This document shows, piece by piece, positions 27,396-51,391 of a stretch of DNA of 54,958 bases (the stretch's first letter is position 1; the number at the start of each line of letters is the position of its first letter). The notes under the pieces are model-generated. The model was not told where the DNA came from and made no database searches. It saw only the letters and a list, made by a program, of their open reading frames with translations. Source of the DNA: Candidatus Hydrogenedentota bacterium. Lineage in GTDB: Bacteria; Hydrogenedentota; Hydrogenedentia; Hydrogenedentales; CAITNO01. Made by a program: the position numbers and the translations under genes. The stretch lies in the NCBI GenBank assembly GCA_012730105.1, contig JAAYBJ010000059.1, forward strand, positions 1-54,958, read 5' to 3'.

Positions 27396-28796
27396 TTACT
27401 TTGCTGCAGGGGTGGCCGGAAGTTTAGGCTTGGAAGACAATAGAAAGGTTGCAAGCAGTTTGAGCGTTCTGCGCGGGTTTTTGATGAATGTTACTAGATG
27501 CGTGAAAAGAACCCGAGGACGCAGATAAAAATACCGGTACAGACGTTGCCTCCGTTTATTCGCAATATGGTAAATGTCAAGGTTCTTGTAAGCACATCGG
27601 AATGGGATTAGGCTGAAATCGATGTCTTCAGATATCTGCTCAAAATAGGGCGTGGTAGCAAACGGTTCCAGTGTGTTCACGGTAATGAAATCCAAGGGGG
27701 AATCAAGAGCGCCTTTAATCGTAATTTTGAAGTCGTCTTCTGTTTCAAAAGGGGCGCCAACCATGAAAAAAGCGAGTGTTTCTATCCCGGAATGCTGAAT
27801 TAGTTTGAGCTGCGGGTTGATGATTTCCGGCGATATACCCTTGTTTAACTTGTTAAGAACGTTTTGTGAGTAACTTTCAATGCCGATCATGATTCGCTTA
27901 CAACCTGCCTTGAACATCCAATCGAGCATCTCTGCGTCGATTGTGTCGATTCTCGAAAGACAAGTCCATGGAATGTCAAGATTCTTTTTGATAAGCAACT
28001 TGCATATGGAGATTACACGGGACTTGTCGCAGGTGAAGATATCGTCGAGGAAACGGACGATTTTAATGCCCTTTTCTTTCAGGTAATGTATTTCAGCGAC
28101 CACACTTTCAGGAGAGCGATAGGACACAAAGCGACCGTAGGTCGTGGTGCAATAGTTGCAGGAAAACGGACATCCGCGTATGGACAGAATCGCCGCGCAC
28201 GGACCGCCCAGAAAGGCTTCTTCATAGTGGGATATGTCCACTAGGGAGGGGTCGGGAAACGGGAGGTCATCAGTGTTTTCAATGCGTTCTTCAGGGTTGT
28301 TAAAAAGGCTGCCATCGCTTCTGCGACCAGCCAAACCAGGGATTGTGTCCACGGGTGTCCCGTTTTTGATTGCCTCAAGATATTGCGACAACGGCAGCTC
28401 GGGCTCACGGCGCAATACGAGATCTATGGCGGTTTTTTTTAGCAACTCATCGGGAAATCCGGTGGGATAATAGCCGAACACTGCTAGCGGTATTTTGTGG
28501 AAATGTTCTTTAATCTTTGATACACAGTCCAGATCATCGCCAAATACTTTTATGCCCATCAAGACAACGATCAGGTCAGGTTCATAAGTGTCAATGCGTT
28601 CTATAACAGTGTGCAAATCTGCCCTTTCCGCGATTGCATCGAGAACCTTCACGTTGACTTGATTCCATTCTCGCACGCAGGTCGCCAGGGAAAGCAGATC
28701 ATAGGGAGGCAACATATACTCAGGAGAGTAATAACTGCACATGTAACGGCGCATTATCGGCAGTTCATGCGGCGGATTTAAAAAGAAAATCTTCAT
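27396..28796 (-). CDS. B12-binding-type radical SAM protein
   Basis: The 466-residue protein starts at ATG 28796, because MKIFFLNPPHELP is the usual beginning of B12-binding-domain radical SAM proteins; a longer frame to 28898 lacks support. Residues 1-150 have the cobalamin-binding-like fold (DLIVVLMGIKVFG). The radical SAM cluster motif CPFSCNYC has Cys209, Cys213 and Cys216 (C-x3-C-x2-C). IRFLDDIFTCD and RIMIGIES follow in the barrel, and the C-terminus is basic (RRTLKLLATFL). The reaction is unknown. It could be a methylase or ring-modifying enzyme for the glycan locus starting here. It is divergent from a second enzyme of the same type. Confidence 0.8.
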   Translation of the reverse strand: MKIFFLNPPHELPIMRRYMCSYYSPEYMLPPYDLLSLATCVREWNQVNVKVLDAIAERADLHTVIERIDTYEPDLIVVLMGIKVFGDDLDCVSKIKEHFHKIPLAVFGYYPTGFPDELLKKTAIDLVLRREPELPLSQYLEAIKNGTPVDTIPGLAGRRSDGSLFNNPEERIENTDDLPFPDPSLVDISHYEEAFLGGPCAAILSIRGCPFSCNYCTTTYGRFVSYRSPESVVAEIHYLKEKGIKIVRFLDDIFTCDKSRVISICKLLIKKNLDIPWTCLSRIDTIDAEMLDWMFKAGCKRIMIGIESYSQNVLNKLNKGISPEIINPQLKLIQHSGIETLAFFMVGAPFETEDDFKITIKGALDSPLDFITVNTLEPFATTPYFEQISEDIDFSLIPFRCAYKNLDIYHIANKRRQRLYRYFYLRPRVLFTHLVTFIKNPRRTLKLLATFLLSSKPKLPATPAAK

Positions 28797-29137
28797 CTTG
28801 ATAGTATCCGAAAAGAAAAAGATAAATTGCAGCAGGAATTTGTACAGGCGAAGCCGCTTATAGTTCCTCTCCTCTCCTCTGCTCGGTTTATGGCACATAT
28901 TTGCTTTATCCGGCAGGTGGCAGGTAAGCCCGCTGTTGTTAAATATTTGCTTGTGAAACGATACGAGAGGGTTTTAACCCACTGTTTGACAGAGGGTAAT
29001 TTAAATATACCACCTAACACATACCATTCGGAGATGACAACCAACCTGTCTCGGAGCAGATGAAATGATCATAAATAACAAGCCTGGATAGAGTGAAATG
29101 TATTTTAACACGCTGTTTCAAGGGGATGCAATTTATG

Positions 29138-29182: not shown

Positions 29183-29413
29183 AAATTTCAATAGTTTTGC
29201 ATCAGACAGAGGCGTACATATTGCCCGCTATACCAGACATGGTTTGTGGCGGCGGAAGTGACAAGGGCCTGTTCTATTATTGGGAAAACCCGGAAAAACA
29301 AGGGAAAAAGCCGGCAAAAAGTGCCCAATGAACGGCAACTCCTGTGTGAAAAGCCGCGGATACTTGCTATTATTTCGGGGTGCAGGCAATTTCGGTTTAT
29401 ATTTGAAGGCATT

Positions 29414-30883
29414 ATGAATATCTTACTTATTAACCCGCCGGGTGAAAATGTAGTTGCCGAGTTTCAAGACTCCAAAGGCAAGGGGTTTCTTGAAGTGGAT
29501 GACTTTGGCAAGTTTCCTCCTTTGGGAGCGCTGTATGTGCTGTCCTACGCTGAGAAATATCTGCCGGATCACCATTTTTATTTTCTGGATTGTGTGGCGG
29601 AAAAAATATCCCATGCAGATTTGCCGGAACGGTTGGCGGAAATTGCCCCGGATATTATCGGAGTGACAAGTTTTACCATTTCCCTGATGGATGCGATAAA
29701 GGTGGCCGAAGCTGCACGCGATGTAGTACCGGGCGCGCATTTGTGTCTTGGGGGGCATCATGCTACGGATTTCCCGCTTGAAGCGGCAAAACTTGACGAA
29801 TTCGACTCGATAGTCGTGGGAGAAGGGGAGCAGGCATTTGCTTCGTTGATTGAAAACATAGCAACTGGAAAGGAGATTACCGGAATAGCCGGAGTGTATA
29901 CCCGGGATACGATTGAGGCGCATGCGCGGCTCAACGTGCGGGATCCACGATTCCGTGGATCCATGCCGGTGCCCCCTGCGTATATAGAAGATATTGATAT
30001 ACTGCCTCCACCCGACAGACACCACGTTGCGCATATTAACTATCACAGTGTGGTCGGCATGGATGCTCGGCTTGCCACCATGATTACCAGCAGGGGATGC
30101 CCCTGCAAATGCACTTTTTGCAATGTGCCATGCAAGCAATACCGTCCCAGAAATCTGGGGCTTGTGATGGATGAAATAGAGGAATGCAGGCGCATGGGGT
30201 ACAGGGAATTTCATTTTTATGACGACCTTTTCAATATTACTTCACGTCGTTTAGAGGAATTTTGCCTGGCTTTGAAGGAAAGGAATCTGTCTGTTGTATG
30301 GGATTTTCGTGGACGTGTAACCGGCGTGACCCGTGAGTCACTGGCTTTGGCAAAGAGTCTTGGGTTGCGGTTGATTTTTTTTGGTGTTGAAACGGGATCA
30401 GACGAGGGGCTTCGGCTTCTTAACAAAGGATGCTCCATTGCTCAAATCCGGCAGGCCTTCCAATGGTGTCGGGAACTTGGTATTAAAACTGTCGCCGATT
30501 TCATGATCGGATTACCCCATGAAAAATCCGTGGATGACGTGCGGGAGAACATAGATTTCTTGATATCACTGCGGCCGGATTACGCCCAGATCGGCATCAT
30601 GAACTTGTATCCACATACCGAGATATATTCGCAGGCGGTTGAAAAGGGATTGGTGGAGCTTAACCGTTGGAGCGAATGGGCAAAAAATCCTACACGTGAT
30701 TTCAGAGTCGAACACTGGACGGAATTCCTTTCTGAAGAGGAACTGGTTCGGCTTCACAGGGAATCCTATCGGCGGTTCTATTTCAGACTCTCCTATATTA
30801 TGCGAAGCATCGTAGGTCTCCGTTCTTTTCATGAATTCAAATCCAAGGTAACGGGTGCTCTGAAACTTCTGATACTCCAATAA
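29414..30883 (+). CDS. B12-binding-type radical SAM protein
   Basis: The 489-residue protein starts at ATG 29414 (GAAGG four bases upstream; MNILLINPPGENV is the typical opening), not at the longer frame from 29246. The N-terminal domain has the B12-binding pattern, including LCLGGHHATDFP (110-121) and VVGEGEQAF. The cluster motif is GCPCKCTFC with Cys229, Cys233 and Cys236. Barrel motifs include FHFYDDLFNI and FFGVETGSD; LPHE follows in a later strand. The reaction is unknown. The family includes hopanoid and tetrapyrrole modifiers and methylases. Next comes a GT2, with a 69-base gap, so co-transcription is likely. Confidence 0.85.
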   Translation: MNILLINPPGENVVAEFQDSKGKGFLEVDDFGKFPPLGALYVLSYAEKYLPDHHFYFLDCVAEKISHADLPERLAEIAPDIIGVTSFTISLMDAIKVAEAARDVVPGAHLCLGGHHATDFPLEAAKLDEFDSIVVGEGEQAFASLIENIATGKEITGIAGVYTRDTIEAHARLNVRDPRFRGSMPVPPAYIEDIDILPPPDRHHVAHINYHSVVGMDARLATMITSRGCPCKCTFCNVPCKQYRPRNLGLVMDEIEECRRMGYREFHFYDDLFNITSRRLEEFCLALKERNLSVVWDFRGRVTGVTRESLALAKSLGLRLIFFGVETGSDEGLRLLNKGCSIAQIRQAFQWCRELGIKTVADFMIGLPHEKSVDDVRENIDFLISLRPDYAQIGIMNLYPHTEIYSQAVEKGLVELNRWSEWAKNPTRDFRVEHWTEFLSEEELVRLHRESYRRFYFRLSYIMRSIVGLRSFHEFKSKVTGALKLLILQ

Positions 30884-34614: not shown

Positions 34615-34719
34615 TTTGCTCTCCAATGTAAACGAGGTCAACAAGGTATACGCCCAAGATACAGGCAATTGACAACTGGTGGCGTATTCCAATAAACGCG
34701 CCCGTTAATGCAAGGTATC

Positions 34720-36798
34720 ATGAACGAAATCATTAAACTAGACCATGTAACCAAGCGTTTCCCAGCCCGACGGGGTTCGCGCGACCTGCGGGGCAAAGGC
34801 GGGTTGGGCGACTGGATAAAGGGGCGTAAAGAGGGAAAATTTACTGCATTACATGATATTTCACTCGCCGTGGCGCAGGGAGAATCCCTGGGTATTATAG
34901 GCAAGAACGGCTCGGGGAAAAGCACGCTGCTCAGTATTATTGCGGGGGTTACAGTGCCTTCTGAAGGCATGGTGCAGGTTTATGGAAGGGTGGCATCGCT
35001 GCTCGAATTGGGGGCCGGGTTCAACCCGGTGCTTACGGGCCGCGAAAACATCTACCTGAATGCGGGACTTTTAGGCATGCGCCAGGCACAGGTGGACGCG
35101 GTTTACGATGAAATTGTGCGTTTTTCGGGCATCAGCGAGTTTATGGAACAGCCGGTGGAAACCTACAGCAGCGGGATGTATGTGCGTATCGGATTCTCCG
35201 TGGCGGCCTTTGTTAATCCGGATATTTTTATCGCTGATGAGGTATTGGCTGTTGGAGACGCGGAGTTTCAGCGAAAATGCCGCGCCAAGATAGGGGAACT
35301 TCGGGAACAGGGCAAGACGATCGTATTCGTGTCCCATGACTTGGGGATCGTCAACACCTTGTGTGAAAGGATCATATTGTTGGACAAGGGGCGTATGGTT
35401 CAGCGTGATACGGCGCAAAAGACCATCACCTATTATCTGCGCCAGGTGGGGCGCGAGAAAGGGATACACACGTTTGCGGCGGGCCGCACAGAAGCGGTGT
35501 TTTGCGACGGGCGAATTTCGCTTTTCCATGACCAGGAAGAAGTAAGCGCGCCCGCGGGATTTCAGATAGAATTTATCTCGCTGGGGCAAATACAATCCAG
35601 TACGGATGCGGAATGGGATATTGAGGAGGGCGACAGTTCCGGGTGTAAGGCTGTTGGCCGAATGTTACGTATGCCTGTCCTTTTGCGGTGGGATATGCGT
35701 ATTGACAAGGATACCTTGTCGTGGCGGGTCGCTATTGAAGCTGAGCGTGAAATGGCTATTGAGGAGATTACTATTCGGTTTTTTATGCCCATGGCCTATA
35801 ACCAATGGATGTATGACGGCCAATCGGGTGAGTTTCCTGAAATCATACCCAGTGATACTGCATGGCGTGTCGTTGTTTCCGGAAGCGCGGATATCTCGGA
35901 AACGGCCTGCCTTCCTGAACCGGGTTCCGGATTGCCGCCGGCCATGTTTCATGTGGAATCAGAATACGAACGCTTTCGCCTGTATTGGATGAGTTCAGAT
36001 TATTTATCCTGCAGCCGGGTCTTGTGTGCCCAAGCCCGATATCCGGAGAAGGATTGTATTTTTCAAAAAGGGAATCACGAATTAGTCGAAACGTGTGTTG
36101 CCCTAAACATTCTTGAAGATCAGGTCGCAGAACACATGGCGGCAAAAAAGATGATCAGAGATGGGGACTTGTCGCTCTCTCTGGACCGAGGAAAGGTCAT
36201 TATCAACTGGAAAGGTGTTTGCATCACCTGGCTGCATCATCTTTATACATCCGTTTTGATAGGCGGTCTCTGGAATGACAGCATGAATTTGCATTGGGGA
36301 AAATTCATTCGCAATGCTGATGGTATTTTGCAAAAGGGAGAGTCCAGACGTTTTCCCTTCTCTCAGGAATGGGAGGTGGGGATAGAAAATGGGGTACTTC
36401 TATTGCGAATATGGATGCAGAGCGAAACGGAAATGGACCTGCAGGAAATGCAAACGAGTATTATATTACCAGCTTCCTATACGCGGTGGAAAACGGATCA
36501 CGAACAGGGAAGTTATGGTGAATATACTGCCGGCATGAATGATTGGATTCACTGTAACCGGATTTATGAGCCGGGAAAAGTCATATACGCCGGCGGTAGT
36601 GATATGCCTGCAGTGGAAATGCGCGTCAGCGATGATTGTCCTGAGGTGCGTATGACGGCCATTAATACCGGATATCAGGAGCAGGGAAGGGTGCTCCAGG
36701 CTTTGCGCACTTCAGAAAAAGGGTGTTTCCACCTGCCGGCCGGCCGACATCTTTATTTTTCTGGTACGATCAGGTTACTGCCCGGGTTTGAACTCTAA
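34720..36798 (+). CDS. ABC-transporter ATPase, Wzt/TagH-like, with long C-terminal region
   Basis: The 692-residue protein starts at ATG 34720, with AAGG just upstream (an ATG 12 bases earlier lacks a ribosome-binding site). The ATPase occupies residues 1-250: Walker A GKNGSGKST (61-69), the Q-loop region LELGAGF, signature YSSGMYVRIGF, Walker B DIFIADE (168-174) and H-loop His206. The GRENIYLNAGLLGM stretch is characteristic of polysaccharide-exporting Wzt and TagH. The remaining 440 residues are beta-rich and form probably two domains, like Wzt C-terminal carbohydrate-binding domains but longer. No Wzm-type permease gene lies nearby. Export of a glycan or glycoconjugate is inferred. Confidence 0.8.
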   Translation: MNEIIKLDHVTKRFPARRGSRDLRGKGGLGDWIKGRKEGKFTALHDISLAVAQGESLGIIGKNGSGKSTLLSIIAGVTVPSEGMVQVYGRVASLLELGAGFNPVLTGRENIYLNAGLLGMRQAQVDAVYDEIVRFSGISEFMEQPVETYSSGMYVRIGFSVAAFVNPDIFIADEVLAVGDAEFQRKCRAKIGELREQGKTIVFVSHDLGIVNTLCERIILLDKGRMVQRDTAQKTITYYLRQVGREKGIHTFAAGRTEAVFCDGRISLFHDQEEVSAPAGFQIEFISLGQIQSSTDAEWDIEEGDSSGCKAVGRMLRMPVLLRWDMRIDKDTLSWRVAIEAEREMAIEEITIRFFMPMAYNQWMYDGQSGEFPEIIPSDTAWRVVVSGSADISETACLPEPGSGLPPAMFHVESEYERFRLYWMSSDYLSCSRVLCAQARYPEKDCIFQKGNHELVETCVALNILEDQVAEHMAAKKMIRDGDLSLSLDRGKVIINWKGVCITWLHHLYTSVLIGGLWNDSMNLHWGKFIRNADGILQKGESRRFPFSQEWEVGIENGVLLLRIWMQSETEMDLQEMQTSIILPASYTRWKTDHEQGSYGEYTAGMNDWIHCNRIYEPGKVIYAGGSDMPAVEMRVSDDCPEVRMTAINTGYQEQGRVLQALRTSEKGCFHLPAGRHLYFSGTIRLLPGFEL

Positions 36799-36822: not shown

Positions 36823-38088
36823 ATGCACAAAGAGATGTACACAAAAACGAGGAGACGCGTTCTGACGAGACGTGGCGTAATGTGGCTTGGTCAAACATGC
36901 AATCAACGGTGTTATTTTTGTTACTTCATAAATCGCATTACAGATCATAAGCATCCGGAACATGCGTTTATGTCACTTGAAAAAGCGAAACATATTTGTT
37001 ACACACTGCGACATTTTTTCGGTAACACATCAATCGACATACAGGGCGGGGAGCCAACCATATATCCTTCCATATTAGAACTGGTGCGTTACTGCAGGGA
37101 CATTGGACTTATCCCGACACTGATTACGAATGGACTTGTGCCTGCCAAATCGGGAGTCATTGAAGCGTATCGAGATGCGGGATTGCGGGATTTTTTGGTA
37201 AGCCTTCACGGCATTGGCGACATCCATGATGAGGTAGTCGGGGTAAAAGGCGCGCATGAAAAAATACTGGCGGCTTTGGAGCGGATGCGCGTGTTGAACT
37301 TTCCATTCAGAATCAACTGCACCATGTCCAAGCCTGTGGTTCCTCTTCTTCGGGAAGTGGCTCGGTATGCGGTTGATTACGGAGCATATGCTGCCAATTA
37401 TATAGCGTTTAATCCGTTTGGAGACCAGGAAGCCGGTAGGCGTTGTGCCGATACTGTTTCACGCTATACAGAAGTGCGCGATCAACTTACCGGCGCCATG
37501 GATATTCTGGAGAGCGCCGGCATCGAGGTAAATGTCAGGTATCTTCCTTTTTGCATGGCTGAAGAACGCCACAGGAAGAACTTCTATAATTTTCAGCAGC
37601 TGCCCTATGATACCCATGAGTGGGATTATCAAAGTTGGTCCTGGACAATGAGCGCCCCCCAGCTGCGGAAGGAGGGCGGTAATATGCCGCCCTTTTTAAT
37701 CGGAGGGCCCTACAGCCGGAGTCTGTTAAATGCGGATGCCTTGTATATACGGGACCACTATGAGAGAAATCCCCGGATACAGGCTGCAAAGTTCAAAACG
37801 CACCAGATGATTACGCGAGTGGTTCAACGTGTGCGTGGATTGGACACAATTTATCGAGAGGAAGCGCGTTATCGTGCCAAGTATCACTGCCACTATAAGT
37901 ACCATGAGGCCTGCGGGTCTTGTGCCGCAAGAAACATATGCGACGGCTTTCATGGTGACTATGCCGAAATGTTCGGTACCAGTGAAGCCAATCCCATAAC
38001 CGGTGTAAATATTATTGACGATCCTCTTTTTTACGCGCGGGAGCAGGAGAAAACCGTTGAACGGGAAGACCTGGTATGGGCTGGGTAG
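36823..38088 (+). CDS. Radical SAM protein with SPASM-like C-terminal cysteines
   Basis: The 421-residue protein starts 25 bases after the ABC ATPase. The radical SAM cluster motif is TCNQRCYFCYF with Cys26, Cys30 and Cys33, and IQGGEPTIYP (74-82) is the SAM-binding GGE motif. LPFC (Cys244) and a C-terminal cluster CGSCAARNIC (Cys364, Cys367, Cys373) plus Cys356 in CHYKYHEAC look like a SPASM/twitch auxiliary iron-sulfur site. There is no B12 domain. Related enzymes modify peptides or sugars. The next gene is a paralogue fused to a GT2. The shared C-x2-C-x5-C pattern suggests the two act as partners. Confidence 0.85.
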   Translation: MHKEMYTKTRRRVLTRRGVMWLGQTCNQRCYFCYFINRITDHKHPEHAFMSLEKAKHICYTLRHFFGNTSIDIQGGEPTIYPSILELVRYCRDIGLIPTLITNGLVPAKSGVIEAYRDAGLRDFLVSLHGIGDIHDEVVGVKGAHEKILAALERMRVLNFPFRINCTMSKPVVPLLREVARYAVDYGAYAANYIAFNPFGDQEAGRRCADTVSRYTEVRDQLTGAMDILESAGIEVNVRYLPFCMAEERHRKNFYNFQQLPYDTHEWDYQSWSWTMSAPQLRKEGGNMPPFLIGGPYSRSLLNADALYIRDHYERNPRIQAAKFKTHQMITRVVQRVRGLDTIYREEARYRAKYHCHYKYHEACGSCAARNICDGFHGDYAEMFGTSEANPITGVNIIDDPLFYAREQEKTVEREDLVWAG

Positions 38089-38127
38089 AATAGGCGGAGC
38101 TTATCTCTGAAAGTACGGTTTCATTTG

Positions 38128-40503
38128 ATGTCAGTAAAGGTAGACAATTCAAAAATATCCATGGACCATGTGTCATGGTCCCCGCCTCCCCTCCGGGGTC
38201 TGGTCCTTTCACAAAATAGAAAGGGGAGACCCTTTCGCCTTGTGGATCAAAAAAAATGGATGCGCCTGAATACCCGGGTATTCAAAAATTTAAAAATAGA
38301 TTATATGGCGTGCCCGGCTTCTCTGGAGTCGCTTCCAGATTTGATCGCATTTTCAAAGGCGGAAAAAGTAAGATTGTCTCTGCGGCTTGATGACAAGGTT
38401 AGACCGGGGAAAGCGCTTGCCGTAGTTGTACCGGATGTCTTGGATATATTCTTATGTCTTACAAAAACGGATCCTGTAGTACTTAAGGAATGGGTAAGGT
38501 TTTGTGAAGAAAATGGAGCGGCGTTGCGAGTGCAAGTCAGTCCATTCCCTGGTCTAAGACCGGCTCCGGAAATGTTGGCGGAATGTCTACACAACGCTGT
38601 ATCCGTCAACGTCGCCTTAAGAGATCCTTTCTTGTTTACAGAGCGGAACAGGGGTGCCGATGAGTGTCGCCAGGTTGTTCAGTGGATGAATGCATTGATA
38701 GGCGCATTAGATAGCCTGGGGGTGGAAGCAAATCTGGTCGGACTCCCCTTCTGTCATGTTACTCCGGAAGTTCAAAATCATTTGCTTAATAGCAGGCAGT
38801 TTTTCTTGGATCATCAGCAGTATGATCGAAAATCCTACGAATTGGCGGAGAGAATCCAGTATTTTGGACCCGCCCGCATGGCGAATACGATTGAAAACCT
38901 GCTTGCACGGGGAAAATCAAATAGTGAGTTGTTGAACAATATACTTTTCCCATGGCTTATTGGCCATCCTATGCTCCACGTGAGGGCATGGATGCTGCAT
39001 CGCCTGACGCGTCATCTTGGCTCTTTGAGAAGGGAAATGTCGCTTCCTAAAAACGATGCAGAATGGCTCTCTTGCCTCGCGAATAAAAAAAACGGTTATT
39101 TGCGTACTCTTGACGATCAATGTCGGTGTTGTAGGTTCTTGCGGATCTGTGACCATAAAACAAAAGCCTTCTCGCAGGTGTTGCCTGATTTGTCCGTTCA
39201 GGCGGTTGAAGGCGAACCTGTCATGGTGCAGACGGAATGCGCGGAAGGCAGGAAGCGATACTATGATGTTATAGATGAAGCGCGCCATAAACTTCCCCAA
39301 CGTTTGAATACGCTGTCTGAAAATGCCTTAAGAGTTATTGTTTCGGAAAAACCTTCCCGGGAAATTCCGGTAGACGCGTACAAAATAGAAAATCACTATA
39401 ACCCGACGGATGATGCCTCCAAACGGTGGTACTCATTGTCCAGGGGTGAGTTGAAGAGTACGGTGATCGGGCGTTTTACTCCCCCTCTGACAATAGCGGT
39501 TACTTTTGGCGGGGGGATTGCGGAACAAGTCGGCTTTAGTTTCGGAAGATACGCCACTATTGTATGCCCAATGATAGACTATTCACACCAGGTAGCGCTG
39601 CATGTCGACTGCGACGGTTATTATGTCCTGTTAAGGGACGGGAGGCCGGTTCGTCCTGCGGAACTTACAGGCATGGCAAAAGCGCCTGAGCGGCTGCCGG
39701 ATATACTGGAACCGCGCATTTCCATTCATAATATTGACGGTTTTATCCTGACTCAGACGCTGCTTGTTTGGGAGGGAGAACCTCGCAGGGATGAAAGGCC
39801 AGTTCAGGCCAAGTATTCTGTTCTTATCGTGAGTACCCGGTATACACGCCGTCTTCAGGCGGTGCTGCTTGCCCTGGCTCACCAGGCGGGTATCGCGCCC
39901 GGACTGCTGGAGGTGGTTGTGGCCTATGTCCCGGGCATAGACGCCACAGATGATTTATTGAACGGCATTTCCCATGCACATCCAAATCTGCGTATAGTCC
40001 GGATGCCTTTTCCGGAGGAATACGCCTGTTCAAAAGGGTTTATGATTAATGAGTCTGTACGTGCTGCGTCCGGAAGGTGGATTGTGCTCTTGGATTCCGA
40101 CATCATAGTACCACCGGATATTTTTGGAAAAATCGACGCCGCGGAGGCAACGTCTGCCTTTATTGTGCCGGACGGCAGGAAGATGCTGTCGCCAGAGATG
40201 ACGTCAAAAATTCTCCTGGGGGAAGTCCGTTCTTGGGAAGCGTATGACGCCATATCCAGCGCCACTGAAGAGTTCCGTTACCGTGAGGGTAGCGGCGTGC
40301 CCTGTGGCTTTTTTCAGTGTGTACGCAGGGAAGTGCTGGAAAACATCCCATACCATGAATACGATCATTTTGAAGGGTCAGACTGGTTTTTCGGACGGGA
40401 TGTAATTAACCAGTATGGTGAGGTGACATGGCTTGAAGGGGTGCATGTGTTGCATCTGGATCATGGCGGCAGCCAGTGGTACGGAACGCAGAAACATCGA
40501 TAA
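38128..40503 (+). CDS. Degenerate radical-SAM-like domain fused to a GT2 glycosyltransferase
   Basis: The 791-residue protein starts at ATG 38128 (a TTG three bases earlier is ignored). Residues 1-350 resemble the upstream radical SAM protein: LGVEANLVGLPFC matches its AGIEVNVRYLPFC, and CRCCRFLRIC (Cys332, 335, 341) keeps the same C-x2-C-x5-C pattern at almost equal distance (about 120 residues). The canonical C-x3-C-x2-C is absent; the corresponding N-terminal part is shorter. A beta-rich middle domain (about 400-560) follows. The last 230 residues are a GT2 (YSVLIVSTRYTRRLQAVLLAL, IVLLDSDIIVPP, FEGSDWFFGRDV). It is probably a non-catalytic radical SAM scaffold coupled to a glycosyltransferase. 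Confidence 0.75.
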   Translation: MSVKVDNSKISMDHVSWSPPPLRGLVLSQNRKGRPFRLVDQKKWMRLNTRVFKNLKIDYMACPASLESLPDLIAFSKAEKVRLSLRLDDKVRPGKALAVVVPDVLDIFLCLTKTDPVVLKEWVRFCEENGAALRVQVSPFPGLRPAPEMLAECLHNAVSVNVALRDPFLFTERNRGADECRQVVQWMNALIGALDSLGVEANLVGLPFCHVTPEVQNHLLNSRQFFLDHQQYDRKSYELAERIQYFGPARMANTIENLLARGKSNSELLNNILFPWLIGHPMLHVRAWMLHRLTRHLGSLRREMSLPKNDAEWLSCLANKKNGYLRTLDDQCRCCRFLRICDHKTKAFSQVLPDLSVQAVEGEPVMVQTECAEGRKRYYDVIDEARHKLPQRLNTLSENALRVIVSEKPSREIPVDAYKIENHYNPTDDASKRWYSLSRGELKSTVIGRFTPPLTIAVTFGGGIAEQVGFSFGRYATIVCPMIDYSHQVALHVDCDGYYVLLRDGRPVRPAELTGMAKAPERLPDILEPRISIHNIDGFILTQTLLVWEGEPRRDERPVQAKYSVLIVSTRYTRRLQAVLLALAHQAGIAPGLLEVVVAYVPGIDATDDLLNGISHAHPNLRIVRMPFPEEYACSKGFMINESVRAASGRWIVLLDSDIIVPPDIFGKIDAAEATSAFIVPDGRKMLSPEMTSKILLGEVRSWEAYDAISSATEEFRYREGSGVPCGFFQCVRREVLENIPYHEYDHFEGSDWFFGRDVINQYGEVTWLEGVHVLHLDHGGSQWYGTQKHR

Positions 40504-40568: not shown

Positions 40569-41324
40569 CTAAAATGCGGCATAAAAATTCCATTCCGCGT
40601 CAATCTTTTCCGGATCGTGTTCTTGAATTTTCTCTAATACGATATAGTTGTGAAAGTAATGGGCGGCATACAGGCGGGCCGCGTGAATATCCAATGGGGA
40701 TGCCTTAAGCGCCTGGGCAAAAGCGCGCCACCGATCGCTGCCGGTGCGGTTGCCGCCGCAAAATCGGGTATCCAAACGGTAGCAGCCCCTGCGGTTCGTA
40801 TCGATGAATGAAAAGAGTTTTCGTATTGAAGGCATCCAGGTGTCATGAAGCATGATGCGCCCTCCTGTCTGCAATAGTCGGTCCGTGTAAAAGAAGTCCA
40901 GCAGCGAGAATTCGAAACGATGGTTGCCGTCAATAAAAATAAAGTCGTAGCGCTCCTTATCGCCAAGCAGGCGAGGCAATACCATATAGGATGGTTCAAC
41001 AAAACAGCGGAATATATCCTGCAATCCAGCACGCTTCACATTCAGAACGCCAATGCCATTCCACCATTTCTGTTGATAGGGGTCTACGGCTGTATGCGCC
41101 CCGCCGCCGTTATCCTGCAGCGCCTGGAGGATATGCAGGGCTGAAATGCCGTATGCCAGGCCCACCTCCAGCGTCCTGCTTCCATTTGTGTGGGTTACGA
41201 CATCATATAGGGCTTCGCCATCACTACGGCTCAGGGATACGGGGAAGGCATCTTTCGGTGTGCCTTCAGGGTCAAGAACCTTTTCTGTCCTGTAGATTTC
41301 CTCCAGAACCGTATTAATCATCAT
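40569..41324 (-). CDS. Class I SAM-dependent methyltransferase
   Basis: The 251-residue protein starts at ATG 41324 (AAGGAA five bases upstream; a longer frame to 41378 is rejected). Motif I reads RTLEVGLAYGISALHIL, with the acidic end of the next strand at HTAVDPYQQ, then YDFIFIDGNHRFEF and GGRIMLHDTW. This is the Methyltransf_24-type pattern. Members often act on sugars or glycoconjugates. The acceptor is unknown. It converges on the radical-SAM/GT2 fusion and is probably the last gene of a minus-strand group with an epimerase and an ATP-grasp enzyme, though 166 bases separate it from the epimerase. Confidence 0.8.
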   Translation of the reverse strand: MMINTVLEEIYRTEKVLDPEGTPKDAFPVSLSRSDGEALYDVVTHTNGSRTLEVGLAYGISALHILQALQDNGGGAHTAVDPYQQKWWNGIGVLNVKRAGLQDIFRCFVEPSYMVLPRLLGDKERYDFIFIDGNHRFEFSLLDFFYTDRLLQTGGRIMLHDTWMPSIRKLFSFIDTNRRGCYRLDTRFCGGNRTGSDRWRAFAQALKASPLDIHAARLYAAHYFHNYIVLEKIQEHDPEKIDAEWNFYAAF

Positions 41325-41490
41325 ATTTTTCCTTAATGGGCGTCTCCGTGGCAACTGTAAATAATCGATACGTACCACATGAAGCCATGAAGTTAAAGAA
41401 AGCCTTTGGTTGCGTATTTACCACGCTGCGAGCTCAACTATCCAACGGTTGCGCATAAAAGTACGGGATTGGGGCGATTCCCGGATGTGT

Positions 41491-42378
41491 TCAGCGGATT
41501 TCGGCGGCCAGGTCTAAAACGCTTTGTTCCAGGGCAAACTGGGGTGCATACCCAAATTCACGGGCTGCCTTGGCAATGGACAAATCCCAACACACCTTGT
41601 CGTCAGGGTCGTTCACACCCGTCAAAACGATTTCAGAGGAGGAGCGCAGTGTTTGTATGCACCGTTGCGCGAGTTCGAGATTCGAGACCGGGACGCCGGA
41701 ACCCAGATTATAAATTCCACGGCAATCTGAACACACTGCCTGCAGTATGCCTTGGGCGATATCGCGAACATCCACATAGTCCTGCCGCCGGGCGCCTGTC
41801 CCGTGTATCTGAAGAGGGGCATTCTCAAGCGCGTGTTCCACGAAGAGACGGAATATACGCCTGTGGCGCAACCCGGGGCCTACCGGGGAAGAAACACGCA
41901 GCGAAATCGTGCGCCGGCTGTCAGTGCCGCCCTCTATTATCTTGTGTTCGGCTTTAAGTTTTGACACAGCATAGCCGGTGCTGGGGGTCAGGGGATGCGC
42001 CTCGGTAATGGGATGTTCACAAGGCATACCCAGGATACTTAAACTGGAAAGATAAATGAAACACCGGGCTTGGAGTGTATCCGCCGCATCCAGCAGATTC
42101 AGGGAACCCGCGTAATTTACCTGCATCATTTCCGCAGTATACGTATCGTCTTTTATACTGGCTGCGGCATGCACAATAACTTCGCATTCACTTACGCCAT
42201 GCACGGCCTTGTCGATAAATTCAGGATCCGTAATATCCAGGGAGTACTGCCGCACCGCTTCCGGCAGGGCAGGGTTTAGCGTGCGGCTGATACCGATGAC
42301 CTCATGCCCCTCTTGACAGAGCGTGTAGGCAACGGCGCCGCCGATATGGCCGCTGGTTCCGGTTACAAGGATACGCAT
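41491..42378 (-). CDS. NAD-dependent epimerase/dehydratase (SDR family)
   Basis: The 295-residue protein starts MRILVTGTSGHIGGAVAYTL, a Rossmann GxxGxxG motif, and has an active-site YAVSK (Tyr-x3-Lys) following SSLSILG. These define an extended SDR of the nucleotide-sugar epimerase/dehydratase type. The sugar nucleotide is not identifiable. An upstream GTG (42384) overlapping the ATP-grasp stop is a possible alternative start, but ATG 42378 gives the usual N-terminus. It is spaced 2 bases from the ATP-grasp gene, so they are clearly coupled. The next gene downstream is the methyltransferase. Confidence 0.85.
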   Translation of the reverse strand: MRILVTGTSGHIGGAVAYTLCQEGHEVIGISRTLNPALPEAVRQYSLDITDPEFIDKAVHGVSECEVIVHAAASIKDDTYTAEMMQVNYAGSLNLLDAADTLQARCFIYLSSLSILGMPCEHPITEAHPLTPSTGYAVSKLKAEHKIIEGGTDSRRTISLRVSSPVGPGLRHRRIFRLFVEHALENAPLQIHGTGARRQDYVDVRDIAQGILQAVCSDCRGIYNLGSGVPVSNLELAQRCIQTLRSSSEIVLTGVNDPDDKVCWDLSIAKAAREFGYAPQFALEQSVLDLAAEIR

Positions 42379-42380
42379 TA

Positions 42381-43451
42381 TCACATTCCATAGGGTTCGA
42401 TACGGACATCGTTGTCCGACACGGCGCTGATGGTGCCTTTTCGCTTCGTTGCTTCACAAAGTTCAGGTGAAACATACAGTTCATTCCAGTAGCGCAGGGC
42501 AATGCCCCGGGTGATATTCGGCAAGACCAGGGGGCTTTCATGCAACAGGAAATGGCGCAGCACAGATTCCACCTCGTTGTATCCCAGTGCCGCGCGGATA
42601 GGGGTGGTACCGGAAAAGCGCGGATTAATTTCGAAACAAACAGGCCCCCGCTCCGTCATCCGCAGTTGAATATTGCACGGCCCGGGACAACGTAGCGCCC
42701 CTGCAATCCGTTCCGCTTCTCGTTTTACCTCGGGATATTCCCCCGCAACTGCGCGATAGGTGGTGCCCGCAAGCAGTTCCCGCCACATGACGATACTGCC
42801 GCACACCATGCCGTTGCGGTCGCAAAAGCATCCGGCAGTATATTCCTGATCATCAGTTCCCAGGAACTCCTCGATAATATACGCTTTTTTCCGGGACACA
42901 TATTCCAGGTCATCGGCACTTTGAATCATGAGGATTCCGTACGCCCCGCCGCCGATACGTGGTTTCGCGATCAGGGGAAACCCGTGTGTTTCAGCAAGGT
43001 GATGCAAACCGGCATGGTCTTCAGAAGCGGCATGCGCGGGGCAGGTGAAGCCATTTTCGGAAAGCCATTCACAGGTAAGCAGTTTATCATCACAAGTCGC
43101 CCACACTTCCGGCGGGCATACAAAACATAAGGCCCGGGTGGAGGATTCGATTTGTTTCCGTGCCGGGGCCAGTATGCGCAACACGGGCTCGCAACCGCTC
43201 AAGATGATATCAACTTCTTCCTTGTTACATAAGGATATGAGCCAATCAAGGAACCCCGGAGCAGTGGCGTGGGGCGCTATATACCCTCGGTCTACGGTAT
43301 ACAACCCCATCTGCAGCGCATCCAAATCTGTGCCGATAACGCGGCACGGCAGGGAGGACGTCGCCAGGGCTTTCAGAATGCCCTCGCTGACATTGCCGCC
43401 CACGGCCAGAACAAGCACATTCAGGGGATGTTGCTTTGATAATTTTTCCAT
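42381..43451 (-). CDS. ATP-grasp protein (carbamoyl-phosphate-synthase-like)
   Basis: The 356-residue protein starts at ATG 43451 (a TTG two codons earlier is ignored). After an N-terminal Rossmann-like domain (LNVLVLAVGGNVSEG, RVIGTDLDALQMGLY), residues 110-290 form an ATP-grasp fold: FPLIAKPRIGGGAYGI, AYIIEEFLGTDDQEYTAG and RGPVCFEINPRFSGT. That is the CarB/PylC-like branch, which ligates a carboxylate to an amine or other nucleophile through an acyl phosphate. With an epimerase and methyltransferase it may amidate or link an amino acid to a sugar. The substrate is inferred only. Upstream lies a 9-base repeat region. The ribosome-binding site is weak. Confidence 0.8.
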   Translation of the reverse strand: MEKLSKQHPLNVLVLAVGGNVSEGILKALATSSLPCRVIGTDLDALQMGLYTVDRGYIAPHATAPGFLDWLISLCNKEEVDIILSGCEPVLRILAPARKQIESSTRALCFVCPPEVWATCDDKLLTCEWLSENGFTCPAHAASEDHAGLHHLAETHGFPLIAKPRIGGGAYGILMIQSADDLEYVSRKKAYIIEEFLGTDDQEYTAGCFCDRNGMVCGSIVMWRELLAGTTYRAVAGEYPEVKREAERIAGALRCPGPCNIQLRMTERGPVCFEINPRFSGTTPIRAALGYNEVESVLRHFLLHESPLVLPNITRGIALRYWNELYVSPELCEATKRKGTISAVSDNDVRIEPYGM

Positions 43452-43455
43452 CAAC

Positions 43456-43615
43456 AAAAGTTCTTTAAGTCCTTCATGTCCATTAAGTCCATCAGGCCCA
43501 TTACCAATTTTCTTCTGGTTCCCAAATTCCTATTTGGGAACCAGTCGAAACCGGCGCATTGGTCGTTTATGTCCTTGATGTCCTTTACGTCCTTTAAGTC
43601 CTTTAAGTCCTTGCC
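43456..43615. repeat. 9-base tandem repeat array split by a palindrome
   Basis: Two blocks of near-regular 9-base units (consensus AAGTCCTTT on the plus strand) lie at about 43457-43503 and 43565-43612. Units such as ATGTCCATT, AAGTCCATC, ATGTCCTTG, ACGTCCTTT and AAGTCCTTT are visible. Between them sits the inverted repeat at 43516-43543. On the minus strand the array would code for repeated KDLKD-like peptides, but no ribosome-binding site supports a gene. It precedes the ATP-grasp start by a few bases. Confidence 0.75.
43516..43543. repeat. Perfect inverted repeat within the 9-base array
   Basis: TGGTTCCCAAA (43516-43526) and TTTGGGAACCA (43533-43543) pair over 11 bases around the 6-base loop TTCCTA. 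There is no T-tract, so it is not a classical terminator. It resembles a small dispersed palindromic element. Confidence 0.7.
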
Positions 43616-46602: not shown

Positions 46603-48033
46603 ATGCGATTAACTCTTGTTATTCCTCCATTTGACCAGAAAAAGACTTTTGGTGGCGGCGTGTTTAATCGGGGTATGCTGCCGCCCTTGGGCGTCGGTTA
46701 TCTTGCTGCTTATGTCAGGCCGCGCGGGCATACGGTAGTCCTCATCGATTCCCCTTTATATGATTATGATTGTGCGGGCGCCGCTGATGCAATTATGCGG
46801 TCAAAACCCGATATCGTGGGCATGTCTGTGTTGACAAAGTGCGCCCATTCGGCCTACGCTCTCGCCAAGGCGCTAAAGCAAAAAGACAAATCCCTCCCAA
46901 TCATCTTTGGGGGGGCTCATGTTACTTCTTTTTTTGAGAACATTTTTAAGGAGTGTCCGGACGTTGATTATTTGATTCCGGGCGAGGGAGAGGAGTCTCT
47001 CGGAGAATTGCTGGACCGCTTGGAAAAAAAACAAGAGGTTGATGATATCAAAGGTCTTCTTGTGCGTCTTTCGGATGGTACCTGCATCGCCACTGCCCCG
47101 CGCACACCGGTTAAGAATCTTGATGCTTTGCCCTCACCCGATAGAGATATTTATGATAATCGTCTTTATGTTCCACTTCCAAATCAAAACAGACAGCTTC
47201 CGGCGACAACCGTTATAACCTCGCGAGGCTGTCCTTATGGCAAGTGTCGTTTTTGTTATCAGGGAGGCTGTTATTCCTCACCCTATCGAAGGCGTTCTCC
47301 CGAAAATGTTGTATCAGAAATAGACAATCTGGTGCAGACGCTTAAAGTGAAGGAGATTATTTTCTGGGACGATAACTTTTGTGTTAATTACAATTGGATC
47401 GAACGTTTTTGTGATTTGCTGGATGAAAAACAACTTGGCATCGGTTGGACTGTTCAGGGCAGGGTGAATACCGTTTCGGAAAAGATGTTGATGCGTATGG
47501 CCGCCTCGGGATGTTACAACATCTATTATGGCCTTGAAAGCGGGTCCCAGGAAATGCTTGATTTCGTACAGAAAGGGATTACCCTTGAACAGTCCCGGAA
47601 TGCTGTAAAGTGGGCAAAACGAGCCGGTATGGAAATAAGGGGATCCGTCATATTTGCCATGCCGAGTGACACACCTGAAATCTCTGAACAAACTATCCGT
47701 TTCGCATGCGAACTCAACGTGGATTGGATGATTTTCTACCCCTATCATGTGCAGCCTGGGACATTTCTGGGAGAAATCGCGAGTGACTATGGGACGATTT
47801 TACAAGAACAGGCTGATATGTCCAGTCCCTCATACGTTCCTAAAGCATACCTAGACGCCGAACAAATTTCCAAACTGATTAAGGAAGCGAACCGCCGTTA
47901 CTATTTACGTCCAAGGTATATATTAAGGACGTTATGGCGCATAAAAAATCCCTACACATTAAAGAGCACGATCATAGCATTCTTTTATTGGTTCTCTCTT
48001 GTAACTAAGCGGATAGATAAAAAGAACGCTTAA
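46603..48033 (+). CDS. B12-binding-type radical SAM protein with C-x4-C-x2-C motif
   Basis: The 476-residue protein opens MRLTLVIPPFDQ and has a B12-binding-like N-terminal domain (IIFGGAHVTSFF at 100-111, IPGEGEES). The cluster motif is GCPYGKCRFC: Cys210, Cys215, Cys218, so the first gap is four residues, not three. Barrel motifs IIFWDDNFCVN and IYYGLESGS follow. The C-terminus is basic with a hydrophobic stretch (IIAFFYWFSLV), suggesting membrane contact. The variant spacing occurs in some B12-type radical SAM proteins, so it is not in itself a defect. The reaction is unknown. A GT-C gene follows after 45 bases, so a shared transcript is likely. Confidence 0.8.
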   Translation: MRLTLVIPPFDQKKTFGGGVFNRGMLPPLGVGYLAAYVRPRGHTVVLIDSPLYDYDCAGAADAIMRSKPDIVGMSVLTKCAHSAYALAKALKQKDKSLPIIFGGAHVTSFFENIFKECPDVDYLIPGEGEESLGELLDRLEKKQEVDDIKGLLVRLSDGTCIATAPRTPVKNLDALPSPDRDIYDNRLYVPLPNQNRQLPATTVITSRGCPYGKCRFCYQGGCYSSPYRRRSPENVVSEIDNLVQTLKVKEIIFWDDNFCVNYNWIERFCDLLDEKQLGIGWTVQGRVNTVSEKMLMRMAASGCYNIYYGLESGSQEMLDFVQKGITLEQSRNAVKWAKRAGMEIRGSVIFAMPSDTPEISEQTIRFACELNVDWMIFYPYHVQPGTFLGEIASDYGTILQEQADMSSPSYVPKAYLDAEQISKLIKEANRRYYLRPRYILRTLWRIKNPYTLKSTIIAFFYWFSLVTKRIDKKNA

Positions 48034-48078: not shown

Positions 48079-49758
48079 ATGAGCCTGCTGGTATATAAAA
48101 TTTTAGGTGAAATTCGGAGTCTATTAAAGAAAAATATCTATTCGGGAACTTTACGACTAATGCGTGGGAACGTTGCAAATAGCTATCAAAAATTGAAAGA
48201 AATATTAACACGTAATTTTTATTTCATTGATATGTCTAATAATCCTGTAATTCCAGCTGTTGTATTAATAATGTTTTCGTTATTAATGATTTACTTTGCC
48301 TTTCTTAGATGGCCTTGTTTAATAGACGATGCTTTTATAACGCTTACATATTCAAAAAATATCGTCTTGGGAAGGGGCTTTGTCTACAACTATGGGGAAC
48401 CTACTTATGGGTCTACCAGTCCATTATTGGTACTGATTGGTGCCGCACTGGGGGTGTTACTACCATGGTTACCTTTGCATTTATTAGTAACACTATTTAC
48501 TGCATTATGTGCAATTGGTATAGGGTGGATTCTTCTTATATTTCACAGGCAATTTCGTATTTCACCTTGGATCGCTGTTTTCATGGGCAGTGCGGTTATT
48601 ATAGCAAGTGATCCTGTGTATTTGGGGATGGAATCTTTCCTTTTTCAGTTCCTTTTAGTTTTGTCATGCACACAAGCCTTCCGTAAACGTTATCTAAGTT
48701 GCGGTGTATGTATCGCTTTACTACATTTAACCCGCGCCGAGGGGGTCCTTTTATTACCCGTTCTTATGCTCTATGTTTGCGTATCAGATTTTAATAAAGG
48801 AGAGCGCGACATCTATAATCTGTTCAGGCCTCTATTAAGGATGGCACTAGGCGCAGGTGTTGTTGCCGGTATCTGGACGTGTTATGCCTATATTACCTTC
48901 GGGCGGATAACCCCGAATACGTTTAGTGCGAAAATAACGGCGTTAGAATATACAGGGAAAGGTTTGGACTTCAGGGCTAGTTGGTTGCTTTATGTAAATA
49001 ACAGGTTTAAGGACTGGGGGGGCTTTTTTAATGTTTATAATGTTTTTGGGGTTATGATTTGGAGTCTTGCAGGTTTGGGGATTTATGATATAGTTCGTTA
49101 TCGTCGCAGGTGGATCATCTTCCTGTTGTATGCGCTAGCATATATAATAGGATACAGTATAATTAATATAGGATTTCATAGGTGGTATGGTTTACCATTG
49201 GTTTTGATTTTAATTCTGTCAATGGTTTTAGGAGGAGCTAGGCTTGCAGGTCGGGTGCTTGCATCTCAACGAAAAATATTAATGGTGGGTATGATTCTCA
49301 CAGTAACAATCCTGTTTTTGGGTGTGGAGATATATCGTGGTGTGGGACAAAGCAGTAGGAAGTGGATGGATCCGCGAGCCCCAACATATCTCAAGGTTGC
49401 TTCTTGGCTTCGAAGCAATACTGAACCTGGTTCAAGTGTTTCAATTGGAGAAATCGGATATATTGGATACTTTACTGATAATAAAATAGTTGATCTCGTG
49501 GGACTCGTATCACCCGAAGTTGTTCCCTTTCTGGCGAAGGGAGATACTGTAGGCGGTTTCATGATGTACAAACCCGACTATCACATCCTTATAGAAGGAT
49601 GCCCGTTTAGCGAGCCAATATTAAAACATCCATTTTTTATTGAGAACTATACACAAGTGGCTTGTATTAGGGGTCCAAAGCCAAGAGAAAAAATGTATAT
49701 ATATAAACGCAAGCAAGAAATATGTAGTTTTAATAGTTGTGTAAAAAATAGTATTTGA
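48079..49758 (+). CDS. GT-C-like membrane glycosyltransferase, tandem copy 1
   Basis: The 559-residue protein has about ten membrane helices from residue 58 to about 420 and a soluble C-terminal domain (about 430-559). The first loop has LIDDAFITLTYSKNI (Asp83-Asp84), then GRGFVYNYGEPTYGSTSPL, matching the arabinofuranosyltransferase-like/DPM-dependent GT-C pattern (acidic DD as catalytic pair). The C-terminal region contains IGEIGYIGYFTDNKIVDLVGLVSPEV. It has a paralogue immediately downstream. Its DNA is notably AT-rich, with many TTA codons, compared with most of the window. The initiator ATG has a weak ribosome-binding site, so the N-terminal 50 residues are less certain. Confidence 0.75.
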   Translation: MSLLVYKILGEIRSLLKKNIYSGTLRLMRGNVANSYQKLKEILTRNFYFIDMSNNPVIPAVVLIMFSLLMIYFAFLRWPCLIDDAFITLTYSKNIVLGRGFVYNYGEPTYGSTSPLLVLIGAALGVLLPWLPLHLLVTLFTALCAIGIGWILLIFHRQFRISPWIAVFMGSAVIIASDPVYLGMESFLFQFLLVLSCTQAFRKRYLSCGVCIALLHLTRAEGVLLLPVLMLYVCVSDFNKGERDIYNLFRPLLRMALGAGVVAGIWTCYAYITFGRITPNTFSAKITALEYTGKGLDFRASWLLYVNNRFKDWGGFFNVYNVFGVMIWSLAGLGIYDIVRYRRRWIIFLLYALAYIIGYSIINIGFHRWYGLPLVLILILSMVLGGARLAGRVLASQRKILMVGMILTVTILFLGVEIYRGVGQSSRKWMDPRAPTYLKVASWLRSNTEPGSSVSIGEIGYIGYFTDNKIVDLVGLVSPEVVPFLAKGDTVGGFMMYKPDYHILIEGCPFSEPILKHPFFIENYTQVACIRGPKPREKMYIYKRKQEICSFNSCVKNSI

Positions 49759-49825: not shown

Positions 49826-51391
49826 ATGGATGAGCATTTAAAAAAAAACTGTCAAACGGTTAACGGAATATTAAGCAATCGGGTATATTGGGGCTCCATA
49901 ATTAATCATCCAGTTTTACCGTTGGTCGTTTTATTTATTTTTTCTTTGTTACCGATATACTATGCCTCGCTTAGATGGCCTTACTTGAAAGATGATTTTT
50001 TTATAACGCTTACCTATTCAAAGAATATTGCTCTGGGAAGGGGGTTCGTCTATAACTATGGAGAACCGACCTTTGGGTCTACCACCCCATTATTGGTGTT
50101 GATTGGTGCTGTACTTGGCCTATTGTTGCCTTGGTTTCCTTTACATTCGCTCGCGACCCTGTTTACCGCGTTGTGTCTGGCCGGTATAGGGTGGATTTTT
50201 CTATTGTTTCATAAACACTTTCGCATTTCGCCCTGGGTTGCTGCTTTTCTGGGTAGTTCACTTATTATTTCAAGTGATCCTGAGTTTTTGGGAATGGAAG
50301 CATATCTGTTTCAGTTTTTGCTCGTCTTGTCTTGTGCGCTGGCCTTCTGTCGATGTTATCTCAGTTGCGGAGTGTGCATTGCCTTGCTACACTTGACGCG
50401 TGCCGAAGGAGTTCTTTTATTACCCATATTGATGACATATGCCGGCATAGCGGATTTCGTTAAGGGAGAACGAGATATTCGCAGATTAAGTGCCTCTCTT
50501 CTGAGGATGGCGATAGGGGCGGGTGTTGTGGCCGGTATCTGGACGTGTTATGCATATATCACCTTCGGACGAATAACGCCGAACACATTGAGTGCTAAAC
50601 TTGTGCATTTAGAATTTTTTGGAGATGCCCCAAGTTTCCGGAATTACTGGCTTATTTTTTTAAATGCCAGGTTTAGGAATTGGGGAGGTAATTTCAATAT
50701 CGTTAATGTTTTTGGAATAGCGCTATGGGTACTTCTTGCCTATGGGGTATATGATGTTATTCGGTATCGACGCCAATGGATGGTTTTCATTTTGTACTTT
50801 ATAGCGCATGTAACCGGTTACAGTATTATTAATGTCCTGTTTTTCCGATGGTATGCACTTCCTCTGATCTTTATCCTGATGCTGCTCGTGGTTTTGGGGG
50901 CAGCAAGACTCATGAGCACAGTATTTACCTCAAAGCCTGTAATTACGACGATTACGTTGATGGCCATGATGTTAATTTTGTTTTTTGGCGCCGAACTATA
51001 TCGTGTCGCAGAGCAAAGCAGAATGAATTGGGCTGATCGTAGAGCGCCTACTTACCTTATGGTCGCCAGTTGGCTCAGAAACCACACGAAACCAGGTTCG
51101 AGTGTTTCGTTCGGTGAAATCGGTTATATTGGATATTTTACAGACAACAAAATAATTGATACTGCGGGACTCGTTTCTCCTGAAGTCATTCCTTTATTAG
51201 CAAAAGGAGATATTATAAGTGGCTTTTTGATGCATAAACCCGATTATCATATCTGGATAGAAGGAGATAAGAACTGGGAACAAATCATAAGGCACCCTTT
51301 TTTCGTGGAGAACTATATACAAGCGGCACGCATTACCGGACCAAAACCACGAGAGGTAATGTACATCTATAAACGAAAAGATGTGGTTTAA
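49826..51391 (+). CDS. GT-C-like membrane glycosyltransferase, tandem copy 2
   Basis: The 521-residue paralogue of the previous gene is shorter at the N-terminus. Large blocks are near-identical (YSKNIALGRGFVYNYGEP, SCGVCIALLHLTRAEGV, AGVVAGIWTCYAYITFGRI), but the first loop reads LKDDFFITLTYSKNI (Asp56-Asp57) and the middle and C-terminal loops differ. Both copies keep the acidic pair, so both may be active with different acceptors. AGAGG precedes the ATG at 49826. The next gene converges from the other strand. Confidence 0.75.
   Translation: MDEHLKKNCQTVNGILSNRVYWGSIINHPVLPLVVLFIFSLLPIYYASLRWPYLKDDFFITLTYSKNIALGRGFVYNYGEPTFGSTTPLLVLIGAVLGLLLPWFPLHSLATLFTALCLAGIGWIFLLFHKHFRISPWVAAFLGSSLIISSDPEFLGMEAYLFQFLLVLSCALAFCRCYLSCGVCIALLHLTRAEGVLLLPILMTYAGIADFVKGERDIRRLSASLLRMAIGAGVVAGIWTCYAYITFGRITPNTLSAKLVHLEFFGDAPSFRNYWLIFLNARFRNWGGNFNIVNVFGIALWVLLAYGVYDVIRYRRQWMVFILYFIAHVTGYSIINVLFFRWYALPLIFILMLLVVLGAARLMSTVFTSKPVITTITLMAMMLILFFGAELYRVAEQSRMNWADRRAPTYLMVASWLRNHTKPGSSVSFGEIGYIGYFTDNKIIDTAGLVSPEVIPLLAKGDIISGFLMHKPDYHIWIEGDKNWEQIIRHPFFVENYIQAARITGPKPREVMYIYKRKDVV

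Follow-up and report, generated by a model that had tools for sequence, protein, structure and literature searches.

Here we report that a protein found almost throughout the uncultured phylum Candidatus Hydrogenedentota joins a radical-SAM-derived domain, which has lost its SAM cluster and kept a putative auxiliary site, to a glycosyltransferase of family GT2, and that its gene often lies beside that of an intact paralogue. The intact enzyme is called P1 and the fusion P2. Both were studied in the window (the whole stretch of DNA that was analysed, 54,958 nucleotides) and in related genomes. The two may represent an undescribed radical-SAM/glycosyltransferase unit, a reading that we put forward tentatively and with less than even confidence, in which P1 changes a sugar and the SAM-less paralogue with its auxiliary cluster reads the substrate for the GT2; the unit would be a core trait of the phylum and would have fused relatives in other phyla and in phages.

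P1 is encoded on the forward strand with the following features:

36823..38088, + strand: P1, intact radical-SAM enzyme, 421 aa (PF04055 at aa 24-163, E 1.8e-18)
36898..36921, + strand: P1 motif C26-x3-C30-x2-C33 (from the sequence; invariant in 19 P1)
37045..37056, + strand: P1 GGEP, SAM-binding motif, aa 75-78 (invariant in 19 P1)
37543..37554, + strand: P1 LPFC, aa 241-244, putative first auxiliary-cluster ligand (P242 and C244 invariant in 19 P1)
37912..37941, + strand: P1 C-x2-C-x5-C, aa 364-373, putative auxiliary-cluster ligands (C364, C367 and C373 invariant in 19 P1)

The PF04055 match, C-x3-C-x2-C and GGE place P1 in the radical-SAM superfamily, and its motifs lie where the earlier note had read them (C26/C30/C33, LPFC at 241-244, C364-x2-C367-x5-C373). 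The strand order in the AlphaFold model (pLDDT 83.7) is beta1 17-21, alpha1 52-64, beta2 70-74 and on to beta7 235-239. The best solved-structure matches obtained with Foldseek were DesII and BlsE, both sugar-acting enzymes; TM scores of 0.41-0.42 make this a modest match in fold, and peptide- and lipid-modifying enzymes are among the matches too. P1 scored far under every NCBIfam cut-off shown (best TIGR04545, 74.9 vs 500 bits) and reached the cut-off of no peptide-maturase family. It resembles the auxiliary-cluster radical-SAM enzymes (SPASM/twitch) in its core, its C-x3-C-x2-C, its GGE and one extra four-cysteine site, but differs from them in having no Pfam SPASM match, while P2 differs in having lost the SAM cluster. 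PF13186, the Pfam SPASM family, matched neither P1 nor P2; the SPASM/twitch-type cysteine pattern (C-x2-C-x5-C plus a distant fourth cysteine) is present in both. NCBIfam also holds a radical-SAM relative named pseudo-SAM/SPASM, TIGR04347, which did not match P2 and matched P1 weakly, through the intact core (56.7 vs 525 bits); the name of this model suggests no glycosyltransferase fusion.

P2 begins about 40 bases downstream of P1 and comprises three domains:

38128..40503, + strand: P2, pseudo-radical-SAM + middle domain + GT2, 791 aa (alternative TTG start at 38125)
38185..39207, + strand: P2 pseudo-radical-SAM domain, about aa 20-360 (hhalign to the P1 family; beta-alpha order as in P1)
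38209..38238, + strand: P2 shortened beta1-alpha1 loop, aa 28-37 (site of C-x3-C-x2-C in P1)
38743..38754, + strand: P2 LPFC, aa 206-209, retained putative auxiliary-site ligand (in 49 P2, P207 invariant and C209 at least 90% conserved)
39121..39150, + strand: P2 C-x2-C-x5-C, aa 332-341, retained putative auxiliary-site ligands (census of 71)
39250..39807, + strand: P2 middle domain, about aa 375-560, beta-rich (strands in the AlphaFold model; no Pfam match)
39814..40419, + strand: P2 GT2 glycosyltransferase domain, aa 563-764 (PF13641, E 1.5e-10, 41.9 vs 27 bits)

The comparison of P1 and P2 had begun from motifs, and these were confirmed: P2 contains LPFC at 206-209 and C332-x2-C335-x5-C341 and has no C-x3-C-x2-C, and the spacing of the cysteines is alike, 120 residues in P1 (C244 to C364) and 123 in P2 (C209 to C332). 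The N-terminal part of P2, said to be some 35 residues shorter, owes this mostly to the beta1-alpha1 loop, which has 30 residues in P1 vs 10 in P2. BLASTP aligned only residues 186-272 of P1 with residues 155-237 of P2 (29% identity, E 6e-7). Profiles of 19 P1 and 43 P2 N-domains proved homologous by hhalign (probability 99.4, E 4.5e-21) over 341 columns, P1 51-417 aligning with P2 37-384, and in three genomes that do not belong to the phylum the P2 profile by itself detected the P1 homologue (E 4e-13 to 1.5e-11). In the joint alignment the cysteine sites of P1 and P2 fall in identical columns; chance matches of the motifs were considered and are ruled out by column conservation and profile homology.

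The AlphaFold model of P2 (pLDDT 85.0, pTM 0.78; mean pLDDT 82-95 in the blocks spanning 21-250) gave the strand order beta1 23-27, alpha1 38-51, beta2 56-61 and on to beta7 200-204. The order of strands and helices is common to the models of P1 and P2, and LPFC follows beta7 in both. The N-terminal 360 residues of P2 matched nothing in Pfam and nothing meaningful in NCBIfam; hhalign, secondary structure and the tree assign this domain, a partial beta/alpha barrel, to the radical-SAM superfamily by descent. In the maximum-likelihood tree, 12 sampled P2 N-domains formed one clade (100/100), which joined the group of P1 and P1-like proteins (94/81), apart from the radical-SAM proteins of the type-B locus described below; long branches meet here (a tool warning), so the exact joining point is unsure. 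Since the sampled P2 N-domains form one clade, the simplest reading would be a single, old loss of the SAM cluster, before the radiation of the phylum.

C-x3-C-x2-C near the N-terminus occurred in none of the 71 complete P2 N-domains of a phylum-wide census and in none of 49 aligned P2; a candidate intact motif in one P2 (L129, aa 341) was rejected as it falls in the retained C-x2-C-x5-C site. The GGE after beta2 was not kept in the P2 examined, where non-GGE sequence aligns with the GGEP of P1. Both cysteine parts, P-x-C and C-x2-C-x5-C, were kept in 61 of the 71 census domains; two, both type-B copies, had a P-x-C match without C-x2-C-x5-C, and eight had neither part. The GT2 part is still there in these ten, so the cysteine site is dispensable in some lineages. 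The sites were mostly kept or lost together, which fits one metal centre, the counts referring to related sequences and not to independent events. P207, C209, C332, C335 and C341 were the only invariant columns in 43 P2 N-domains, a set chosen for C-x2-C-x5-C, for which the fair figure is the 61/71 of the census; R23, G24, N30, W44, D58, D228 and Y232 were conserved to at least 90%. Because it is conserved in concert, the cysteine site does not appear to be a pure relic. Its four cysteines are putative ligands of a [4Fe-4S] cluster. The earlier description of P2 as a pseudo-enzyme paralogue joined to a GT2 is thus borne out: the SAM-cluster loop and GGE are lost, the auxiliary cysteines are kept and the coupling is both ancient and conserved.

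That the P2 N-domain is still a radical-SAM enzyme, its remaining cysteines forming a non-canonical SAM cluster, is very improbable: a cysteine-rich site is retained, but with four cysteine ligands no iron would stay free for SAM, P1 has this site as well as a normal SAM cluster, and GGE is gone. The domain might also be a scaffold only, with cysteines that bind zinc or a cluster for the stability of the fold and no role in the choice of substrate. Six close pairs of P2 gave dN/dS values of 0.10-0.25 for the N-domain, 0.07-0.12 for the middle domain and 0.03-0.19 for the GT domain; the N-domain is under purifying selection, but looser than the other two. Its faster evolution and the several lineages that retain the domain without the cysteine site agree with a scaffold, whereas purifying selection on about 320 residues across the whole phylum, and the non-cysteine columns listed above, speak against it, and we consider a pure scaffold unlikely.

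The middle domain of P2 shows good conservation, its columns averaging 58% identity across 49 sequences, and the family libraries recognised no known family in it (aa 375-560); as a conserved, separate domain it had been overlooked in the first reading. A GlfT2-like fold, suggested for it by the top Foldseek match, was rejected: GlfT2 overlaps poorly with the whole of P2 (TM 0.20, rmsd 23.6), and the profile search matched the GT parts only.

PF13641 was the sole Pfam match above cut-off in P2, and this match together with the D-x-D motif (D656 and D658, invariant) assigns the C-terminal domain to GT2. Further invariant residues in 49 sequences were E749, D752, H776 and H779, and Foldseek matched the fold to GlfT2, K4 chondroitin polymerase and SpsA, all GT-A. 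P2 is like these enzymes in its GT-A domain, D-x-D and further invariant acidic residues; to our knowledge, none of them, or of the glycosyltransferases of their type, has a radical-SAM-derived N-domain. As the invariant motif residues are kept and the fold matches GT-A, the GT2 should be active, a prediction from sequence and model.

P2 was present in 63 of 68 genomes of Candidatus Hydrogenedentota, among them all of the 38 good ones. P1 was present in 48 of the 68, in 47 of them with P2; the lone genome with P1 and no P2 is 66% complete. Sixteen genomes had P2 without P1, and 15 of the 18 P2 copies there keep the four-cysteine site; a dependence of this site on P1 was therefore not seen. A scan of one genome per species over 84,980 species gave 55 P2 loci; it used two GT-domain patterns, which remote P2 forms could escape. 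Most of these loci are titled Candidatus Hydrogenedentota, Hydrogenedentes or Hydrogenedens, and a few 'uncultured bacterium'. One P2 typical of Hydrogenedentota came from a sequence titled Nitrospiraceae bacterium (L090, JAACEL010000023.1), possibly a mislabelled genome. No P1 was found in plasmids and no P2 in IMG/VR. Tandem P2 paralogues adjoin in several genera (L095, L096, L098, L101, L105, L222 and L249).

In the window, P1 and P2 are preceded by the first gene of a conserved block:

34708..36798, + strand: ABC exporter ATPase, Wzt-like, with a C-terminal extension of ~450 aa (PF00005 at aa 48-179, E 1.7e-18)

The ATPase gene ends 24 bases upstream of P1 and lies ahead of P1 in many genomes; the recurrent order is ABC-2 permease, ABC ATPase, P1, P2, GT4. 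A search for the two-gene order, as proposed in the earlier note, found P1 directly before P2 in 14 of the 16 genomes of the family. Other families have P1 behind the permease and ATPase and P2 elsewhere, often with at least one GT4 after it; several families have the two genes on different contigs. With an ABC-2 permease, GT2 and GT4 genes and an ATPase whose C-terminal extension is long, the block resembles glycan assembly of the Wzm/Wzt type, but differs in that a radical-SAM enzyme and a pseudo-radical-SAM-GT2 fusion belong to its core. In the genome of the window the ATPase with its extension adjoins P1; the permease differs in place, a 64%-identical one being found on another contig (C253), whereas in relatives it lies beside the ATPase.

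These distributions bear on the idea that the dead domain partners P1, or other radical-SAM proteins, as a subunit, dimerising with the live enzyme while its auxiliary cluster serves to transfer electrons or to shape the live active site. Such a role would agree with the near absence of P1 without P2 (47/48 genomes have both), with the frequent gene pair and with the retention of precisely the cluster site, and for PapB a transfer of electrons from one radical-SAM molecule to another by way of clusters has been reported (PMC10470005). It is opposed by the 16 genomes without P1, whose P2 mostly keep the four cysteines, and by the families in which the two genes are on different contigs, and we regard it as fairly unlikely. 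The earlier note had proposed that the domain was kept for substrate binding or partnering; the pure-partner version is counted against, since P2 keeps its cysteine site where P1 is missing and so is not simply a subunit of P1. Nor are P1 and P2 always one unit, given P2 without P1 and the distant loci.

P2 also exists in a second, type-B form that lacks the cysteine site, at L046:6286-13045 (G000:C148) and in the relatives L041, L044 and L161. Its neighbours, in several genera, are two or three radical-SAM proteins, of which rB1 and rB2 match Pfam SPASM, a GT4 and a 160-aa protein without a Pfam match.

Peptides are frequent substrates of auxiliary-cluster radical-SAM enzymes, and P1 could modify a peptide or protein that P2 then glycosylates, in a RiPP-like or glycoprotein pathway. 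The radical-SAM proteins of the type-B locus, two of them with a SPASM match, point the same way. On the other side, no conserved small precursor-peptide gene was seen beside P1-P2, P1 falls under every peptide-maturase cut-off of NCBIfam, and the genes nearby encode an ABC-2 exporter of glycan type, a GT4 and a GT2. Because of these gene neighbours a peptide substrate is less likely, and we hold such a pathway to be quite improbable.

A glycan, favoured by the same neighbours (ABC exporter, GT4, GT2), would then be the substrate of P1 and P2. The reading that we prefer, at roughly even confidence, is a glycan pathway that depends on an ABC exporter; in it P1 would alter a sugar, and the dead domain of P2 would dock the same glycan for the GT2. 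Both proteins would take part in the cytoplasmic assembly of a glycan that leaves the cell via the ABC exporter. P1, as an active radical-SAM enzyme carrying a single auxiliary cluster, would modify a sugar in the glycan or in its activated precursor, for example by epimerisation, oxidation or deoxygenation; there is a precedent for such sugar chemistry in BlsE, whose substrate is cytosylglucuronic acid (PMC3715490). The P2 N-domain, an ancient paralogue of P1 without the SAM cluster but with the barrel and the four-cysteine auxiliary site retained, may act in substrate docking, recognising or holding the same glycan while the fused GT2 adds the next sugar. As P2 is near-universal in the phylum and often stands beside P1 and a glycan exporter, it probably helps to build an unusual surface sugar.

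The coupling of radical-SAM proteins with glycosyltransferases, which the earlier note had not recognised from elsewhere, extends beyond the phylum, where the P1 family is tied to glycosyltransferases through independent fusions and neighbouring genes. One genome of another phylum (G100) has permease, ATPase, P1 and a P2-like gene in the same order as in Hydrogenedentota; hhalign gave no link between the N-terminal part of this P2-like protein, a single sequence, and the pseudo-domain (probability 0.5%). In G200 and G324 a GT2 is fused ahead of a P1-like domain that retains C-x3-C-x2-C, the frame breaking near the end in G324 and the contig of G200 ending there, and in G302 and G337 a GT2 adjoins a P1-like gene. 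Further P1-type copies were rare or absent in the few other genomes of the outside phyla. Among viral contigs, L199 (3062-7035) carries genes for GT4, GT4, GT2 and a P1-like radical-SAM protein in a row, and L198 (2-2089, IMG/VR) encodes one protein in which a P1-like domain is joined to a methyltransferase and to a GT-like domain with a weak match to nucleotide-sugar transferases. Campylobacter phages of the CP220 type (L204:5932-6948) have a distant relative of P1 (~25% identity), which adjoins thymidine kinase and phosphoesterase genes and has no GT neighbour. From the repeated pairing with glycosyltransferases, which is the best evidence, we infer that the P1 family may work on sugars or glycans.

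The components described here are of known kinds; we found no published description of their combination in the open-licence literature searched, where neither a fusion of radical-SAM and GT2 domains nor any account of radical-SAM proteins from Hydrogenedentes turned up. P2 is a clear natural case in which the SAM cluster was lost and the auxiliary site was kept under selection phylum-wide, so that the disputed role of auxiliary clusters becomes testable apart from SAM chemistry. Through independent fusions, the findings also tie a radical-SAM family that has no name to the making of glycans, and they supply an almost universal marker and a likely trait of the cell surface for a phylum without cultured members.

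Several other genes of the window were observed. A methyltransferase, an NAD-dependent epimerase and a PylC-like ATP-grasp gene (40569-43457, - strand) run towards P2, and the pair of epimerase and ATP-grasp genes also adjoins P2 in two further genomes (G009 and G010). Three further proteins, putatively radical-SAM proteins of the B12-binding type (27396-28898, - strand; 29246-30883, + strand; 46603-48033, + strand) flank the glycan-like region, and C-x3-C-x2-C is visible in the first two. Tandem paralogues encode two 380-aa proteins with signal-like N-termini (24922-26064 and 26165-27307) and two large membrane proteins (48079-49758 and 49826-51391), and a 1307-aa protein (3716-7639) has a long tail of EGEGE-type repeats followed by a C-terminal hydrophobic segment.
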